From Aggregatilinea lenta (GTDB lineage Bacteria > Chloroflexota > Anaerolineae > Aggregatilineales > Aggregatilineaceae), in the NCBI RefSeq assembly GCF_003569045.1, contig NZ_BFCB01000003.1, positions 2,480,001 through 2,544,000 of the forward strand: a stretch of DNA of 64,000 nt. Direction: 5' to 3'. The notes beneath the pieces are model-generated. The model did no database searches, was not told the origin of the DNA, and saw only the letters and a list, made by a program, of their open reading frames with translations. Of this stretch, positions 35,303-48,230 are shown in pieces. The number at the start of each line of letters is the position of its first letter. Position 1 is the stretch's first letter. The position numbers and the translations under genes are program-made.

Positions 35303-38050
35303 GTGAGCAAGCTGGTTATTGTTGAATCACCAACCAAAGCGCGGACGATCCGCGAATTTTTGCCCAAGGACTATCAGGTCGAGGCGAGCATGGGCCACAT
35401 CCGTGACCTGCCCGCTTCCGCTGCCGAGATCCCGCCCAAGCTGAAGGGCGAGGAGTGGGCGCGCCTGGGCGTGAACGTCGGTCAGGGATTCGAGCCGCTG
35501 TACGTCATTTCAAGGGACAAGAAGAAAGTCGTGCGGGATCTGACCGCCGCGCTCAAGTCGGCGGACGAGCTGATCCTGGCAACGGACGAGGACCGCGAAG
35601 GGGAGAGCATCGCGTGGCACCTTATGCAGGTGCTCAAGCCGCGCATCCCGATCAAGCGCATGGTCTTCCACGAGATCACGCGCGAGGCGATCCAGGACGC
35701 GCTCAAGAAGTGCCGTACCATCGACAGCGATTTGGTCGAGGCCCAGGAAACGCGGCGTATTCTCGACCGGCTGGTGGGCTATACGGTCTCGCCGCTGCTG
35801 TGGAAGAAGGTCGCACCGGGCCTGTCCGCCGGACGCGTTCAGTCGGCGGCGGTGCGCCTGCTGGTCCAGCGTGAGCAAGACCGGCGCGGCTTCCACTCTG
35901 GTTCGTACTGGGATCTCAAAGCTACGATCGAGGCGCACGCGGAACGGTTCACTGCGCAGTTGGTGACGCTCGGCGGCGTGCGGCTGGCGACCGGCGCGGA
36001 TTTCGACGAGTCGACGGGCAGGATCCCGAAGGGCAAAAAAGTAGTCCTGCTCGAGCAGCAGCAAGCCGCCGATCTGCGGGATCGGCTGCTGAAGGGCGCG
36101 TGGTCGGTCAAAGAGGTCAACGAGCGCGAGCAGGAGCGCACGCCCGCGCCGCCCTTCACGACCTCGACGCTGCAAATGGAAGCCAACCGCAAGCTGGGCA
36201 TGTCGGCCCGTGAGACAATGCAGGTGGCGCAGCGCCTCTACGAGCAAGGCTACATCACCTATATGCGTACCGACTCGGTGCACCTGTCCAAGCAGGCGCT
36301 GGGCACCATCCGGCAGTGCGTGATGAACAAGTACGGCCAGGACTACCTCAGCCCGACGCCGCGCCAGTTCCGTACCAAGTCGAAGGGCGCGCAGGAAGCC
36401 CACGAGGCGATCCGCCCCGCCGGGCAGCGCATGCCGACTGCCGAAGAACTGCACCTTTCTGGGCAGGAATTTCGCCTGTACGATCTGATCTGGAAGCGCG
36501 CCATCGCCACGCAGATGGCGAACGCCAAACTGAAGCTGAGCACGGTTACCCTCGCGGTCGAAGACGCAGAGTTCCGCGCGTCGGGCAAGCGCGTCGTGTT
36601 TCCCGGTTTCTTCCGGGCCTACGTCGAGGGCGCGGACGATCCGAGTGCGGCGCTCGACGATCAGGAAACGATCCTGCCGCCGCTCAAACAGGGCGAGCCG
36701 GTGGACTGCCGCGCGCTGGACCCGATGCAGCACGACACCAAGCCGCCCGCGCGTTATACAGACGCGACGCTGGTCAAGGAGTTGGAGAGCAACGGGATTG
36801 GCCGTCCTAGCACCTACGCGACCATCATCAGCACGATCCAGGATCGCGGCTACGTCGTCAAGCAGGGCAACCAGCTCATCCCGACCTTTACTGCGTTTGC
36901 CGTGAATCACCTGATGGAAGAGCACTTCCCGGAACTGGTCGATACACAGTTTACGGCGCGCGTCGAGCAGGTTCTGGACGACATCGCCAGCGGCGGCACC
37001 GAGGGTGTGCCGTACCTGGAGTCGTTCTACCTGGGCGAGCGCGGCCTGGACCAGCAGGTGAAGGCGAAGGAAATCGAAATCGACCCGCGCGAGATTCACG
37101 CGCTGGAGGTCCAGCCGCTGAGCGTACGCGTGCGGATTGGCCCTTACGGGCCGTATCTCGAATACGAAAACAACGGCGACCTGGTGCGGGTGTCGCTGCC
37201 GGAGGCGATGCCGCCCGGCGATCTGGTGGACGAGGAGATCCGGCACCTGCTGCGCCAGAAGGAAGAAGGCCCGCAGCCGCTCGGACATCACCCGGAATCG
37301 GGCGAGCCGGTGTTCGCGCTGATCGGCCCCTACGGCCCGTACGTGCAGTTGGGCGAAAACGGCGAGAGCGGCACGAACGGCAAGGGTGCCAAGCCGCGCC
37401 GCGTGTCGCTGCCAAAGAACCTCAAGCCGGAAACGATCGCGCTCGATCAGGCGATCGCGCTGCTTGAACTACCGCGCAACCTGGGTCCGCACCCGGACGA
37501 CGGCAAGGCCGTCGAGGCGGGTATCGGGCGCTTTGGCCCGTTCGTGAGGCACGACGGCGAGTATCGCTCGCTGACGAAGACGGACGACGTGCTGAAGGTC
37601 GGGCTGCCGCGCGCACTCGACCTGCTGGCGCAGGAGAAAGGCCGCCGCAAGGTGGAGATGCTGCGCGAGCTGGGCGAACACCCCGAAGGCGGCGTCATCG
37701 GGCTGTTCGAGGGGCGCTACGGCCCCTACGTCAAGCACGGCAAGGTAAACGCATCGCTGCCAAAGGCGATGAGCGCGCAGGACATCACGCTGGAGCAGGC
37801 GCTGGCGCTGCTGAGCGAGAAGCAAGCCAAGAAGCCCGCCGCCAACAAGGGCGCGAAGTCCACCAGGAAATCGACGTCGAAGTCGACCCCAAAGACGGCG
37901 CCCAAGACCACAAGCAAGAGCAAGAGTAGTACCAGCGCCGCGTCGAAGACGGGGACCAAAGCTGCGCCGAAATCGACCGCCAAGAAGAAAACGGCGTCTA
38001 CGTCCAAGACATCCAAGACGCCGAACAAGAAGCAGGTTCCGCAGGAATAG
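35303..38050 (+). CDS. topA: DNA topoisomerase I (type IA)
   Basis: A 915-residue enzyme that relaxes negative supercoils. The Toprim domain begins [12 protein letters not shown] and has the acidic [12 protein letters not shown] motif. The active-site Tyr lies in [13 protein letters not shown] (about 316), and [12 protein letters not shown] follows at about 498. In place of the zinc fingers of E. coli TopA, the C-terminus carries four Topo-C repeats with GPYGPY/RFGPF/RYGPY cores (about 608, 675, 735, 802), then a disordered tail of about 75 residues rich in Lys, Ser and Thr. The start is GTG at 35303. The Lys-rich tail resembles those of actinobacterial TopA that raise processivity. Confidence 0.97.
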
Positions 38051-42364: not shown

Positions 42365-44167
42365 ATGGTGGGTAACCCGCATGGTTCGGGAATAGTCGGA
42401 ATGGGCGAGTCGAACGGACGGCCTCCGGTTGAGGTCGAAATAAAGTGGCTGCTGCAGGCCACGATTGAGCTCGTCGATATGCTACGCGTCCAGCGCGATT
42501 TTCTGCGCCGGCACGGGATGGCGCTGCCGCCCGGCACGCTGAACACGTTGAACGGCGTATATACCGATCTTGAGACTTATGCGGGGCAGATCACGCGGAT
42601 CTCGGTCGAGCTGGGGCAGCTGCGTGCCCTGGCGGAGACGATTGCGCTCGTCAATTCGTCGCTGGATCTCAATCAGGTGCTTAACGAAGTGATGGACAAG
42701 GTGATCGCACTGACCGGGGCCGAGCGCGGCTACATCGTGCTGCGCGACGAGCAAACCGGCGAGATGGCCTTCCGCGCGGCGCGCAACCTGGACCGCGAGA
42801 CCATCGACGAGGGCGGATTCATCGTCAGCCGCACCGTGGTGGAAGAGGTTGCCGCGACCGGCCAGCCGATCGTCACCACCAACGCTCAATCCGATCCGCG
42901 TTTCAGCCACCAGCAGAGCGTGATGCTGCACGCGCTGCGCTCCGTGCTGTGCGTCCCGCTGACGGTCAAGGGCGAGGTGACGGGCGTCGTCTATGCCGAC
43001 AACCGCGTACGCGACGGCCTGTTCGGGGAGCAGGAATTGGCGCTGCTGGTGTCATTCGCCAACCAGGCTGCGATCGCGATCGAGAACGCGCGTCTGTACC
43101 GGCGCGTGCAGCTTACGTTGTCCGAAGTCACCGAGATCAAGGAGATGCTCGATAACGTGTTCGCGTCCATCGCCAGCGGCGTGATCACGACCGACATGTA
43201 CGATACGATCACGACCTATAACGTGGCAGCAGAGCACATCCTCGACCTGCCGCGCGACCGCGTTCTGGGCCATGCCCTTGCCGAGGCGCTCCCGGCACTG
43301 TACGCGCCTATCGCGGACGTGCTGTCGAACGTCTACGCGCAGAACGCGCAGGAGACGCTCGACATCGAGCCGGAACTGGGCACACGCGGCAAGGTGTCGC
43401 TGAACCTGAAGCTCACGCCGCTGAAGGACGAGGACGAGACGCAGGGCGTCGCGATCGTACTGGAAGACCTGACCGAGATCAGGCGCCGCGATGCCACGCT
43501 GGACATGGTACGCCGCTATTTGCCGCCGGAAGTGCTGGATAATATCCAGAGCATTGACGGGTTGGGCCTGGGCGGTGAGCGCCGTGTGATCACGGTGATG
43601 TTCGTCGAGATGCGGCCTTTTTCGTCGTTCCCGCCTCACCTCAGCCCGCAGGAGCTGATGTCATGGCTGAATCTCTACCTGACCAGCGGCGCGGAGGTCA
43701 TCCACCAGCAGTCGGGCGTGATCGACAAGTTCATGGGTAACGAGATTATGGTGCTGTTCAACACCCAGCTCAATCCGTATGAGCATCATGCCTGGGCCGC
43801 CGTGATGACCGCACTCCGCCTGGCAGAGACGTGCCTTACGCTGGCGAACCAGTTGGGCGAAGCACCGGAACCGCATTACCGCATTGGGATTCACACCGGC
43901 GTGGCAACGTTGGGCAACGTCGGCAGCGCCACCCGGCGCGACTTCACCGCCATTGGCGATACGGTGAACCTCGCCAAGCGCCTGCAAGAGAATGCGGAAC
44001 ACGGCCAGATCATCATCAGCGAAGACACCTATCGTCACAGCGCCGAGCAGTTGGTTGGTTCGGAGGCGACACTCTCTATTTCGCAGCATCCCGACGTGCA
44101 GGTCCGGGGTCGTCGCCAGGTGACGACGGTCTATGAAGTTCGCGCTTGCGCCGAGCCGGAGTGCTGA
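42365..44167 (+). CDS. GAF-PAS-class III cyclase paralogue lacking metal aspartates (C2-like)
   Basis: A 600-residue soluble protein; the start may be the ATG at 42401. A helical N-terminus (about 25-85) precedes a GAF domain (about 95-245), a PAS domain (about 260-375), a transducer helix with RRYLPPEVLDNIQ, and a class III nucleotidyl cyclase domain (about 403-590). Both catalytic metal aspartates are changed: FVEM with Glu415 in place of the first, and GNEIM with Asn459 in place of the second. The substrate Lys of DKFMG and the transition-state pair Asn535/Arg539 (VNLAKR) remain. Alone it should be inactive. It matches the C2 half of mammalian adenylyl cyclase and probably pairs with the next gene. 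Confidence 0.88.
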   Translation: MVGNPHGSGIVGMGESNGRPPVEVEIKWLLQATIELVDMLRVQRDFLRRHGMALPPGTLNTLNGVYTDLETYAGQITRISVELGQLRALAETIALVNSSLDLNQVLNEVMDKVIALTGAERGYIVLRDEQTGEMAFRAARNLDRETIDEGGFIVSRTVVEEVAATGQPIVTTNAQSDPRFSHQQSVMLHALRSVLCVPLTVKGEVTGVVYADNRVRDGLFGEQELALLVSFANQAAIAIENARLYRRVQLTLSEVTEIKEMLDNVFASIASGVITTDMYDTITTYNVAAEHILDLPRDRVLGHALAEALPALYAPIADVLSNVYAQNAQETLDIEPELGTRGKVSLNLKLTPLKDEDETQGVAIVLEDLTEIRRRDATLDMVRRYLPPEVLDNIQSIDGLGLGGERRVITVMFVEMRPFSSFPPHLSPQELMSWLNLYLTSGAEVIHQQSGVIDKFMGNEIMVLFNTQLNPYEHHAWAAVMTALRLAETCLTLANQLGEAPEPHYRIGIHTGVATLGNVGSATRRDFTAIGDTVNLAKRLQENAEHGQIIISEDTYRHSAEQLVGSEATLSISQHPDVQVRGRRQVTTVYEVRACAEPEC

Positions 44168-44183
44168 GGGACGGAATGACCCC

Positions 44184-45932
44184 ATGTTGAGCACCGCGAA
44201 CATGAATACCACGCTCTACGATCACCTGTGCCGCCTGGGCCGGGAAGTGACCGACCTGGACGGGATGCTGCGCTCGCAGTACGGACTGCTCTACCAGCGC
44301 GGGCTGGCGCTGCCGCCGGAGATCTTCGAGCGCCTCTACTACCTGCGCATCACGCTGGAAGGCGTCGCCAAACGCGTGCTCGACGACGGCGCGGAACTGG
44401 CGCAGCTGCGCGCGCTGGCGGAGACGGTCAAGCTGATCAATACCTCGCTCGACGTAGACGTGGTGCTGCGTGAAGTGATGGACACGGCCATCGCGCTAAC
44501 GGGCGCGGAGCGTGGCTACATCGTGCTGCGCGACTCCAAAACGGGCGAGCTGCGGTTCCGGGTGGCGCGCAGCATGCACCGCGAAGACATCGAAGAGGAC
44601 AATTTCAGCGTGAGCTGGACCATCGTCACCGAGGTCAACGAAACCGGGCAGCCCGTCGTCGCACGCAACGCGCTGCTCGACCCGCGCTACCGCGATCAGC
44701 AGAGCGTGGTGCTGCACGCACCGCGCTCCGTGCTGTGCGTACCGTTGTTCTTCCGGGGCAAGCAGACCGGCGTGATGTATGCCGACAACCATCACGTACC
44801 GGATCTGTTCGGCGAAAAAGAACTGGGGCTGCTAGAAGCCTTTGCGAATCAGGCTGCCGTTGGCATCGAGAACGCGCGCCTGTTCGACCGCATCCGGCGC
44901 GCGCTGAACGAGATCATCGACATGAAAGAGCTGATGGACGACGTCTTCGCGTCTATCGCCAGCGGCGTGATCACGACCGACACCAACGACCTGATCGTGA
45001 CCTACAACCATGCCGCCGAGACGATCCTGGGCATCCCCGCGCAGGACGCGCTGGGCCGGTCGCTGGTGGATGTGCTGCCCGCGCTCTCCGAGCGGTTCGA
45101 CGCGGCCCTGGCGAAGGTGAAAACGGAGGGCCGCCAGAACGTGATCGAGATCGAGCCGGTGCTGCCGGGGCGGGGCGCGGTGACGCTCAACCTCAAGCTG
45201 GCGCCGCTGACCAACGGCGACGGCGCGACTTATGGCGTGGCACTGGTGGTGGACGACCTGACCGAGATCAAGAAGCGTGATGCTACCCTCAAGGTTGTGC
45301 GCACCTACCTGCCGCCCAGCCTCGTGCGCAACATCCAAAGCATCGATCGCCTGGGGCTGAGCGGCGACGAGCGCGAGATTTCGGTGGTATTCGCGGATGT
45401 GCGCGGCTTCACCAGCTTCAGCGAGCAGCTTCCGCCGGAGGAACTGCTGGAAATTATCAACCGCTACCTGACCGTGTGCACGGACGCTATCCAGCTTCAT
45501 GACGGTATCATCGACAAATATTTGGGCGACGCCGTGGTCGGGCTGTTCAACACGCAGCTCAATCCGCAGGACGACCATGCCGAGCGGGCCGTGCGCGCGG
45601 CGCTGTCGATGGTCTACGACGTGAAAGCCCTGCACGAGATTCTTGAGCCGGACCAGCGGCTGTCGTACGGTGTTGGCATCGACACCGGGCTGGCAATGCT
45701 GGGTAACGTGGGCAGCCCCAGCCGTCGGGAGTTCACGGCGATTGGCACGGCCTTCAACTTCGCCAAGCTGCTGCAAGAAAACGCGCTGCCCGGCGAAATC
45801 ATGCTCAGCCAGAGTACGTATGACCGTATCGCGGATCTGTTCGCGCTGGAACCGGTCGAGCCGCGCAAGGTCAAGCCGCACCTTGAATTCGACGTGATGT
45901 ACCGTGTCACGGGCGTCAAACGGCACGGGTAG
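44184..45932 (+). CDS. GAF-PAS-class III cyclase paralogue with metal aspartates but no transition-state Arg (C1-like)
   Basis: A 582-residue paralogue of the preceding protein with the same order: helical start, GAF (about 80-230), PAS (about 245-360), transducer helix, cyclase domain (about 393-575). Both metal aspartates are present, FADVRGF with Asp405 and LGDAVV with Asp449. The motif after AIG is FNFAKL: Asn525 is kept but the catalytic Arg is Leu529, and the usual GDT is GTA. A homodimer should be poor or inactive, whereas a heterodimer with the first protein restores one full site. The ATG at 44184 follows the upstream stop by 16 bp. ATP or GTP preference is not clear; the position equal to the adenine-binding Asp is Thr in both. 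Confidence 0.9.
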   Translation: MLSTANMNTTLYDHLCRLGREVTDLDGMLRSQYGLLYQRGLALPPEIFERLYYLRITLEGVAKRVLDDGAELAQLRALAETVKLINTSLDVDVVLREVMDTAIALTGAERGYIVLRDSKTGELRFRVARSMHREDIEEDNFSVSWTIVTEVNETGQPVVARNALLDPRYRDQQSVVLHAPRSVLCVPLFFRGKQTGVMYADNHHVPDLFGEKELGLLEAFANQAAVGIENARLFDRIRRALNEIIDMKELMDDVFASIASGVITTDTNDLIVTYNHAAETILGIPAQDALGRSLVDVLPALSERFDAALAKVKTEGRQNVIEIEPVLPGRGAVTLNLKLAPLTNGDGATYGVALVVDDLTEIKKRDATLKVVRTYLPPSLVRNIQSIDRLGLSGDEREISVVFADVRGFTSFSEQLPPEELLEIINRYLTVCTDAIQLHDGIIDKYLGDAVVGLFNTQLNPQDDHAERAVRAALSMVYDVKALHEILEPDQRLSYGVGIDTGLAMLGNVGSPSRREFTAIGTAFNFAKLLQENALPGEIMLSQSTYDRIADLFALEPVEPRKVKPHLEFDVMYRVTGVKRHG

Positions 45933-45946
45933 AGACGGCGGCGATC

Positions 45947-46747
45947 ATGGACGGCACTGGCGCGGAGATGGCGCACCTCAAGGCGCAGATCGCGGAGGCC
46001 GAGGCGGAGCTGGCCGCGTTGGAAGAAGAAGTGATCGATTTGCGGCGCGAGCTGGACACGTTCACCCGTGCCTATAACCGTACCATCCGCCCGCTGGCCG
46101 AACGCCTGGACGTGATGCGCACGGTGGTCGCCGAGCTTGAAGCGGAAAAACTCACGCCGCCCCAGCTTGGCGGCTTTGCTGCGTCGCCGGGGGAGGGCTG
46201 GACGCCGCCGCCCGACTACGTGCCGGTCGAGGAGCAGTTCTTTCGCACGTGGATCGCGCCGCGTGGGTCCGCGCCCGCCGAGGCGGAACTGCCCGTGCGC
46301 CAGGTGATCTTGGACGACGATCCAGACCGCATGCTCAAGCGGCTGTACCGCGCGCTGGCCCGGCGCTTTCACCCCGACCTGAGCACCGACCCTGACGAGC
46401 GCGAGCGCCGCACCCGCCTGATGGCCGAAATCAACGCCGCCTACGCTGCGCGCGACCTGAACGCACTGCATTTACTTTCTGAGCAGCCGTCCGGCGCGAC
46501 GCCTGATGTGCCGCTGGCCGCCCTGGCGCTGCGCCAGTTGAAGCAAATCGTGCTCCAGTTGGAGGCACGGCTAATGACCCTGCGCCGACAGCGCAGCGAG
46601 CTGCTCAACGGTGACCTGATGTGGTTGAGCATCCAGGCCAAGCTGGCCCGGCGCGAGGGGCGCGACCTGCTGCGCGAGATGGCAGTTCAGCTTGAGCGCG
46701 ACTACGCCGCCTGCCTGGACCGCGTGGATGAGCTGCGCGCGCGGTAG
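45947..46747 (+). CDS. J-domain protein with flanking coiled coils
   Basis: A 266-residue soluble protein. Residues 5-70 form a coiled coil (AHLKAQIAEAEAELAALEEE), residues about 70-120 are Pro-rich, and about 124-175 make a J-domain-like helical hairpin with the HPD tripeptide at 142-144 in ALARRFHPDLS. A second coiled coil runs from about 190 to 265. HPD stimulates DnaK-type ATPases, so it may recruit a chaperone to partners held by the coiled coils. It begins 14 bp after the second cyclase and ends 31 bp before the glycosyltransferase, so it belongs to one operon. Confidence 0.85.
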   Translation: MDGTGAEMAHLKAQIAEAEAELAALEEEVIDLRRELDTFTRAYNRTIRPLAERLDVMRTVVAELEAEKLTPPQLGGFAASPGEGWTPPPDYVPVEEQFFRTWIAPRGSAPAEAELPVRQVILDDDPDRMLKRLYRALARRFHPDLSTDPDERERRTRLMAEINAAYAARDLNALHLLSEQPSGATPDVPLAALALRQLKQIVLQLEARLMTLRRQRSELLNGDLMWLSIQAKLARREGRDLLREMAVQLERDYAACLDRVDELRAR

Positions 46748-46778
46748 CCGCCGACCCTGCACGACGAAGGACGGACGC

Positions 46779-48230
46779 TTGACTGTTTTGATAGATCTGT
46801 TGGGCGCCGCCTACATGCTGGCGGCGACAGTAATAGCCCTCTACTCCGCCAGTTTTTTTATTCTATTGGCGATCTACCTCCTCAAGCGCAAGCAGCCGCC
46901 CGCCGCGCCCGATGTGCCCGATGACGGGCTGCTGTCCGTGACGTTACAACTGCCAATCTACAACGAGCAGCACGTCGCGGAGCGCCTGATCGATGCCATC
47001 GGCGCGCTGGATTACCCACGCGACAAACTGTGCGTTCAAGTGCTTGACGACTCCACCGACGAGACCACCGCCATTCTGCGCGCCAAAGTGGATGGCTGGC
47101 GCACGCGCGGCCTGGACATCACGCTGCTCCGGCGACCGGAGCGGGCGGGCTACAAGGCCGGGGCGCTGGCGTATGGGCTGGCGTACTGCACGACCGATTG
47201 TGCGGGGACGTTCGACGCGGACTTCGTGCCTGCGCCCGACTTTCTGCGCCGTGTGATGCCGCACTTCAACGCTTCCCCCAATGTGGCGCTGGTGCAAACG
47301 CGCTGGGCGCATGTCAACGTGGACTATAACCTGCTGACGCGCGCGCAGGGACTGGCGATGGACCAGCACTTCGCCATCGAGCAGGTGGCACGCAGCCGGG
47401 GCGACCTGCCCATGTCGATGAACGGTACGGGCGGCGTGTGGCGGCGCGCAGCCATCGTGGATGCGGGTGGCTGGTCGGCGGAGACGCTGACGGAAGACCT
47501 CGACCTGAGCTACCGCGCATTCTTGAAAGGCTGGCGCTTCCGCTACATTGTGGACGTGAGCGTGCCGGGCGAGGTGCCACCCCAGTTGACGGCGTATAAG
47601 CTCCAGCAGGCGCGTTGGGCCAAAGGCTCGACGCAGTGCCTTGCCAAGCACGCCGGGTCGCTGCTGCGCTCGGATTTGACCCTGCTGCAAAAGGTGTTCG
47701 GCTTGACGCACTTGGGCCAGTACGCGATCCAGCCGTTCGTGCTGCTGCTGTTCGTACTGACGCCGCCCGCGCTGGCGACGGGGCTGCTGCTGCGGCTGCC
47801 GCTTGCGCCTCTGGGCATCGCCAGCCTCGCGCCGCCGATCATCCTGGCGATGGGGCAGATCGCGCTCTACCCCGATTGGCTGCGGCGGCTGCTGTACTTT
47901 CCGGCGCTACTGCTGTTCAACACCGGTATGATGCTGAACAACTCGCGCGCGGTGATCGAGGCCTTGACGGGGCGGGGCGGCAACGCCTTCAAACGTACGC
48001 CCAAGTTCGGGGTGGTGCGGCGCGGCGACCGGCTGGCAGGCACGCGCTACCTCATCCGGCCCGACTGGACGACCACCGGTGAGATCGCGCTGGGGCTGTA
48101 TGCGCTGTTGGGGCTGGTCGTCGCCCTATTCCGCGCGCCCGCCATGATCACCTACCTGCTCGTTTATGTGGCCTCGTTCGGCGTGCTGGCGTTCGGCAGC
48201 CTGTGGCAGGCGTGGCGCTACGGCGACTAG
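46779..48230 (+). CDS. Cellulose-synthase-like family 2 glycosyltransferase
   Basis: A 483-residue membrane enzyme starting at TTG 46779, supported by AAGGA 8 nt upstream. One N-terminal helix (about 5-30) is followed by the GT-A catalytic domain with DDSTDE, the TFDADF metal motif (about 145), TEDLDLSYR (about 237) and QQARWAKGS (about 276), the D,D,D,QxxRW set of processive synthases. Four or five C-terminal helices follow. It resembles CslA-type glucomannan synthases and other BcsA relatives but has no PilZ domain. It lies at the end of the cyclase operon, which suggests control of polysaccharide synthesis by that pathway. The sugar is unknown. Confidence 0.88.
   Translation: MTVLIDLLGAAYMLAATVIALYSASFFILLAIYLLKRKQPPAAPDVPDDGLLSVTLQLPIYNEQHVAERLIDAIGALDYPRDKLCVQVLDDSTDETTAILRAKVDGWRTRGLDITLLRRPERAGYKAGALAYGLAYCTTDCAGTFDADFVPAPDFLRRVMPHFNASPNVALVQTRWAHVNVDYNLLTRAQGLAMDQHFAIEQVARSRGDLPMSMNGTGGVWRRAAIVDAGGWSAETLTEDLDLSYRAFLKGWRFRYIVDVSVPGEVPPQLTAYKLQQARWAKGSTQCLAKHAGSLLRSDLTLLQKVFGLTHLGQYAIQPFVLLLFVLTPPALATGLLLRLPLAPLGIASLAPPIILAMGQIALYPDWLRRLLYFPALLLFNTGMMLNNSRAVIEALTGRGGNAFKRTPKFGVVRRGDRLAGTRYLIRPDWTTTGEIALGLYALLGLVVALFRAPAMITYLLVYVASFGVLAFGSLWQAWRYGD

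Follow-up and report, generated by a model that had tools for sequence, protein, structure and literature searches.

In dimers of class III cyclases one chain provides the metal-binding aspartates and the triphosphate-binding loop, the other one the ribose-orienting asparagine and the transition-state arginine (PMC2576301, PMC4174876). The corresponding roles of the C1 and C2 halves are described for the mammalian cyclases (PMC4174876), and in human soluble guanylyl cyclase these residues are divided in the same manner between two subunits, neither homodimer being active, as neither can form a complete site (PMC3591389). Bacterial class III cyclases are described as homodimers with all these residues in one chain (PMC4174876, PMC4886424, PMC9552081). 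According to PMC9552081 no fused dimeric form is known from bacteria, and what a duplicated, linked cyclase gains over the bacterial monomer–dimer system has been called an open question (in one of PMC9552081, PMC4174876 and PMC4886424). Here, we analyze two neighbouring cyclase genes, named A and B, of the bacterium Aggregatilinea lenta (Chloroflexota, Anaerolineae). They are located in a stretch of 64,000 nucleotides (contig NZ_BFCB01000003.1, positions 2,480,001 to 2,544,000), which is called the window and to which all positions of A and B refer. By far the best reading of the pair is an obligate heterodimeric class III cyclase, which we consider very probable from the sequence patterns presented below. 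The original prediction, made from the DNA of the window, knew of no such bacterial pair and called for a literature check. This search found no report of a bacterial two-gene class III heterodimer, with most subscription papers outside its reach; bacteria were apparently not known before to have a class III cyclase whose site is split between two genes.

Division of the active site between A and B

Gene A (42365-44167, 600 amino acids) and gene B (44184-45932, 582 amino acids) are located in tandem on the forward strand with a gap of 16 base pairs, and both encode a GAF-PAS-class III cyclase. Open reading frame calls and motif indexing gave the same coordinates, frames, residues and spacing that had been claimed before. 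Residues were assigned by alignment to solved class III enzymes together with motif indexing. The catalytic set of A consists of Glu415, Lys455, Asn459, Thr528, Asn535 and Arg539, and that of B of Asp405, Lys445, Asp449, Thr518, Asn525 and Leu529. In the window A is thus devoid of both metal aspartates, the first being replaced by Glu415 (43607-43609, forward strand as for all codons given here) and the second by Asn459 (43739-43741), and it retains the ribose-orienting Asn535 (43967-43969) and the transition-state Arg539 (43979-43981). B retains both metal aspartates, Asp405 (45396-45398) and Asp449 (45528-45530), together with Asn525, and its transition-state arginine is replaced by Leu529 (45768-45770). 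The base-contact position is the threonine or serine seven residues before the asparagine. The aspartate of the IGDTVN motif had been considered as the base-specifying residue and was rejected in favour of this threonine.

This distribution was followed in 87 A/B pairs of the order to which the window belongs (the window included, with denominators that vary by position between 84 and 87). Among the A proteins the second metal position never carries aspartate (0/86; Asn 43, Thr 21, Ser 17, and others) and the glycine of the phosphate loop is left in 3/85. The other half of the site is fully kept, with lysine in 86/86, threonine or serine at the base-contact position in 87/87 (81 Thr, 6 Ser), and asparagine as well as arginine in all 87. 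The claim that A has lost both metal aspartates therefore holds for the window and for the second position throughout, but not for the first position across the order, where aspartate is found in 42/85 and glutamate in 36, and where tyrosine, threonine, serine or asparagine can also occur. The B proteins show the opposite picture. Both metal aspartates are invariant (87/87), and so are the loop phenylalanine and the loop threonine or serine (87/87 each), with the loop glycine in 85/87. Arginine is absent from its position (0/86), which is occupied by leucine (37), tyrosine (16), phenylalanine (10), lysine (9) and others, the replacements seen including also isoleucine, glutamine, tryptophan, serine and threonine. 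Asparagine is left in 15/85, lysine is found in 82/87, and the base-contact threonine or serine is relaxed in part to alanine or glycine. This means that the complete set of two metal aspartates, asparagine and arginine is present in A and B jointly in every pair and in neither protein alone, and that no A or B protein has all catalytic residues in one chain as the homodimeric bacterial type does. Since the complementary pattern is seen in every one of the 87 pairs, it is not a product of chance.

The closest unpaired relatives are GAF-PAS-cyclases of other Anaerolineae orders (n = 39; L146-L185) and of family f3 of the same order (n = 9). They share the architecture of A and B, are about 39-50% identical to them and form their direct outgroup. 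Both metal aspartates, lysine, asparagine and arginine are kept in these proteins (one arginine is located beyond a contig end), and the base-contact position in the 39 sequences is threonine (27) or serine (12). With a complete site encoded by a single gene they are therefore expected to be homodimers. The complementary loss of half-sites predicted from one locus is in this way universal among the pairs and absent from their unpaired orthologues.

The two halves of the site are also conserved in opposite directions. Among 203 comparable columns of A and B the list of those conserved in A and free in B is headed by Asn535, followed by Arg539, and contains Gly582, Arg583 and Thr528 of the same half. 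The reverse list, conserved in B and free in A, has at its top the metal-loop glutamate and threonine (A positions 424 and 420), and it holds also the loop phenylalanine, the loop glycine and both metal aspartates. Median pairwise identity is only 0.49 within A and 0.54 within B, so the opposite conservation is not due to recent ancestry. As judged from these columns, each chain is constrained to one half-site and freed from the other, that is, under opposite purifying selection. These data bear directly on the idea that the pair is catalytically dead and serves as a sensor or a nucleotide-binding scaffold, to which the broken site of each homodimer would point. We consider it very improbable, since the losses in the two chains complement each other exactly and the half that each has kept shows no variation across an order of deep divergence; two metal aspartates in one chain and the transition-state asparagine and arginine in the other are not expected of a dead scaffold.

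Membership of class III is supported for both proteins by Pfam and by the fold. The cyclase catalytic domain of A (residues 408-589, 43586-44131) and that of B (residues 397-564, 45372-45875) match the family Guanylate_cyc PF00211 with 70.1 and 60.7 bits, respectively (E-values 2.3e-19 and 1.9e-16), far above the cut-off of 21.9. Single-chain models of both adopt the fold of class III enzymes, with Z 22-24 against CyaB, CyaC and Cya2 (A with CyaB at Z 23.7 and with CyaC at Z 22.7, B with CyaB at Z 22.9); these models have a predicted local distance difference test score (pLDDT) of 76, were built from an alignment of four sequences and speak for the fold, not for the dimer interface. In front of the catalytic domain A contains a GAF domain (residues 100-240, 42662-43084; PF13185 7.2e-22, PF01590 1.6e-20) and a PAS domain (residues 267-373, 43163-43483; PF08448 3e-8), and B likewise a GAF domain (residues 89-229, 44448-44870; PF13185 1.8e-17) and a PAS domain (residues 251-361, 44934-45266; PF08448 6e-12, PF00989 2.5e-10), all on the forward strand. 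No H-NOX or HNOBA sensor domain was found by Pfam in A or B, and in this respect they do not belong to the soluble guanylyl cyclase family. The strict motif NKxnFx3DE of GAF domains that bind cyclic nucleotide monophosphates (cNMP; CyaB1/phosphodiesterase type) is absent from both, a loose form (NR...F...E) being present in A only.

Among described systems the α and β subunits of soluble guanylyl cyclase are the closest in organization. They are likewise products of two homologous genes with the order sensor-PAS-coil-cyclase, with the metal aspartates on α and asparagine and arginine on β, so that the sGC-type division of the site between two genes is what is found in A and B. One full site and one pseudo-site are found in the animal enzyme and would result from the pairing of A and B, and homodimers of the animal enzyme are inactive (PMC3591389). 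In contrast, soluble guanylyl cyclase is eukaryotic, specific for GTP and equipped with an H-NOX haem sensor, whereas A and B are bacterial, have GAF sensors and show a lysine and a threonine that suggest ATP; according to the tree they arose from a separate duplication, namely of a bacterial GAF-PAS-cyclase. The same residue division is known from mammalian membrane adenylyl cyclase and from soluble adenylyl cyclase (ADCY10), B resembling C1 and A resembling C2, but there the two are domains of one fused chain, whereas here they are two genes with the C2-like one in front. The sequence search of solved structures agrees with this order, as had been proposed for the locus: the best stretches for A are from soluble guanylyl cyclase β, AC9 C2 and soluble adenylyl cyclase C2, and those for B from AC5 and AC9 C1, soluble guanylyl cyclase α and soluble adenylyl cyclase C1. 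By both sequence and fold the nearest solved catalytic domains belong to class IIIb, namely CyaB from Pseudomonas aeruginosa (3r5g), CyaC from Arthrospira (1wc0) and the guanylyl cyclase Cya2 from Synechocystis (2w01). CyaC has threonine at the base-contact position as A and B do, and this threonine or serine seven residues before the asparagine is the class IIIb feature; all three differ from A and B in having all residues in one chain and two equal sites. Chytrids, finally, have cyclases that are obligate heterodimers of two unlike chains (rhodopsin guanylyl cyclase/NeoR; PMC8815786, PMC12264004), but these are fungal guanylyl cyclases with membrane rhodopsin sensors.

Origin, distribution and linkage of the pair

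A cyclase tree rooted on the unpaired orthologues has the topology (other orders, (f3, (A, B))), with a support of 99 for A, 97 for B and 100 for A and B together. A and B of the window are 53% identical over about 530 residues, and the origin of the two genes by duplication, as originally suggested, is borne out by this clade. A larger cyclase tree groups A into the same families, and B largely so, as expected if the pair was inherited vertically. As an independent marker, RpoB makes f3 the sister group of all the paired families that were sampled and unites these in one clade (support 99). The agreement of the cyclase and RpoB trees points therefore to one duplication that took place after f3 had diverged. 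As reconstructed from these phylogenies, the second metal aspartate of A and the arginine of B were lost on two stem branches before the paired families radiated. TopA was rejected as a species marker and RpoB taken instead, because the TopA of families f1, f7 and f8 is of another, longer type. The topoisomerase I of the window (35303-38050) is of this longer type common to f1, f7 and f8 (59-75% identical), and the TopA of other families is only about 48% identical to it; a replacement is possible.

A survey of 154 genomes of the order with a full-length match threshold of E ≤ 1e-90 found two matches in 128, one in 16 and none in 10. Nine of the 16 genomes with a single match are exactly the nine genomes of f3. 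From the other seven, five were inspected (G016, G039, G464, G487, G512), and in each the gene is located at a contig end, next to a truncated partner in three cases. The pair was also found in genome G071. Outside the order no genome of the phylum sample showed the two-match state at this threshold, split pairs in other phyla not being searched for. In the class sample this state is almost confined to the order, and the few exceptions whose loci were read show one cyclase gene at the locus; a contig scan with B alone as query gave one locus, in an Anaerolineae metagenome-assembled genome. Co-occurrence of the two genes was thus found in most genomes of the order, and a lone A or B, which could have spoken against an obligate pair, did not appear, the unpaired orthologues examined being complete forms that precede the duplication.

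Gene order (A, then B) and strand are constant across the pairs. The nearest predicted start codon of B overlaps the stop codon of A by 4 or 1 bases in 44/86 pairs, which, as far as predicted start codons can tell, is a sign of translational coupling. No conserved neighbourhood was found, since of 86 other pairs only 6-8 share the flanks of the pair in the window, and the conserved unit is therefore the pair itself. These facts are relevant for the possibility that A and B each associate mainly with other cyclases of the cell. Possible partners are present in the window genome, namely L115 with a complete site and L114, a fused C1-C2 form. We regard this as the least probable of all alternatives considered, because the two genes lie next to each other in a constant order, overlap in many pairs and occur together in 128/154 genomes, with the five inspected singles cut by contig ends, and because the sensor domains of the other cyclases of the genome differ from those of A and B.

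The predicted heterodimer

The ancestor of the pair would have been a homodimeric GAF-PAS-cyclase with a complete site, the gene of which was then duplicated in tandem. In the proposed head-to-tail dimer B would give the two metal aspartates and the phosphate-binding loop, and A the base-contacting lysine and threonine or serine, the ribose-orienting asparagine and the transition-state arginine. With metal residues on one chain and asparagine and arginine on the other, a dimer of A and B would have exactly one complete site; the mirror-image site would be dead or regulatory, as it is devoid of metal ligand(s), phosphate loop and arginine. The residue sets of all 87 pairs agree in this point with the expectation of one full and one dead site per heterodimer. 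Since each copy kept one half-site, A and B almost certainly must pair to make the messenger. Concerning the substrate, the guanylyl cyclase Cya2 has glutamate at the lysine position in the alignment, whereas Lys455 and Thr528 of A match the adenylyl cyclases CyaB and CyaC; ATP is therefore the likelier substrate, and the product is probably cyclic AMP. The enzyme would be soluble and regulated by its sensors, a GAF and a PAS domain on each chain allowing two different inputs (and putatively different ligands) to gate one site. Some of the ten proteins with a cNMP-binding domain in the window genome would probably read the signal. That the order has independently evolved an obligate heterodimer in which two GAF-PAS sensors gate one site and the second site now serves as a regulatory pocket appears likely to us.

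Several observations weigh against the heterodimer. B of the window still has Asn525, so that only the arginine is missing from its second half-site. The paired families form one clade derived from one duplication, and the 87 pairs thus represent a single event preserved many times, not independent events. In A the second metal position is followed by glutamate or aspartate in 83/86 proteins (Glu460 in the window), unlike B and the unpaired forms, where alanine or cysteine comes next, and 77 of the 84 A proteins scored for both positions have an acidic residue at the first metal position. With a near-invariant acidic residue at this place a remodelled metal site in A stays conceivable. Glu460 (43742-43744) and Arg525 (43937-43939) are both near-invariant in A and different in B and in the unpaired orthologues; Thr515 is, like Arg525, A-specific and almost invariant. 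These three residues may be part of the pseudo-site or bind a metal at a remodelled site, and it is mainly because of them that our confidence in the heterodimer is not higher.

Alternatively, one chain could be the only enzyme, active as a homodimer with a remodelled site, with the other as allosteric pseudoenzyme. The acidic neighbour of the lost aspartate and the glutamate or aspartate at the first metal position of most A proteins would suit A in this role, and the two metal aspartates retained in every case would suit B. In B, however, no single residue stands in for the arginine and the asparagine position is free too. A has lost the phosphate-loop glycine, the metal-loop glutamate and the second metal aspartate, and its first metal position can even be tyrosine, threonine, serine or asparagine; on the other hand, the invariant lysine, threonine or serine, asparagine and arginine of A would not be needed by a pseudoenzyme. 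A single active chain is therefore very unlikely as well, even if slightly less so than the dead scaffold discussed above. Concerning another residue as supplier of a missing one, the aligned sequences offer no single substitute for the arginine of B and, with Glu460, a conceivable one in A.

If the obligate heterodimer is true, bacteria have with this pair a natural counterpart of the animal cyclases, and the ancestral form with its undivided site survives in the sister family f3. The pair would represent a bacterial transition from homodimer to heterodimer with both its state before (single complete genes in other orders and in f3) and its state after (the fixed pair), which makes cost, benefit and order of steps on the way to an obligate heterodimer directly testable. 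The pair offers in addition a genetically clean two-input cyclase.

Other cyclases and neighbouring genes

The fused cyclase L114 of the window genome (L114:3764-6205, G000:C1) comprises 814 amino acids, with the metal aspartates in its first cyclase domain and asparagine and arginine in the second. Its best solved match, across both domains, is human soluble adenylyl cyclase, and it represents a fused C1-C2 form of this type. Two further Anaerolineae proteins, L293 (G126) and L296 (G023), are stand-alone proteins of 517 and 542 amino acids, respectively, again with a metal-bearing first domain and a second domain bearing asparagine and arginine. In view of L114, L293 and L296 the statement that the fused form is unknown in bacteria (PMC9552081) does not seem to hold, and fused pseudo-heterodimers may be widespread in Anaerolineae. 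An odd partial site is present in the unpaired L289 (G023, 574 amino acids), in which the second metal aspartate and the asparagine are replaced (LGSTIM, GGVVG) and the arginine is kept. Directly 3' of the pair in the window (45947-48230) the first protein has a DnaJ-like stretch that is weak and does not reach the Pfam cut-off, and a family 2 glycosyltransferase comes next; these neighbours are retained in few relatives only.

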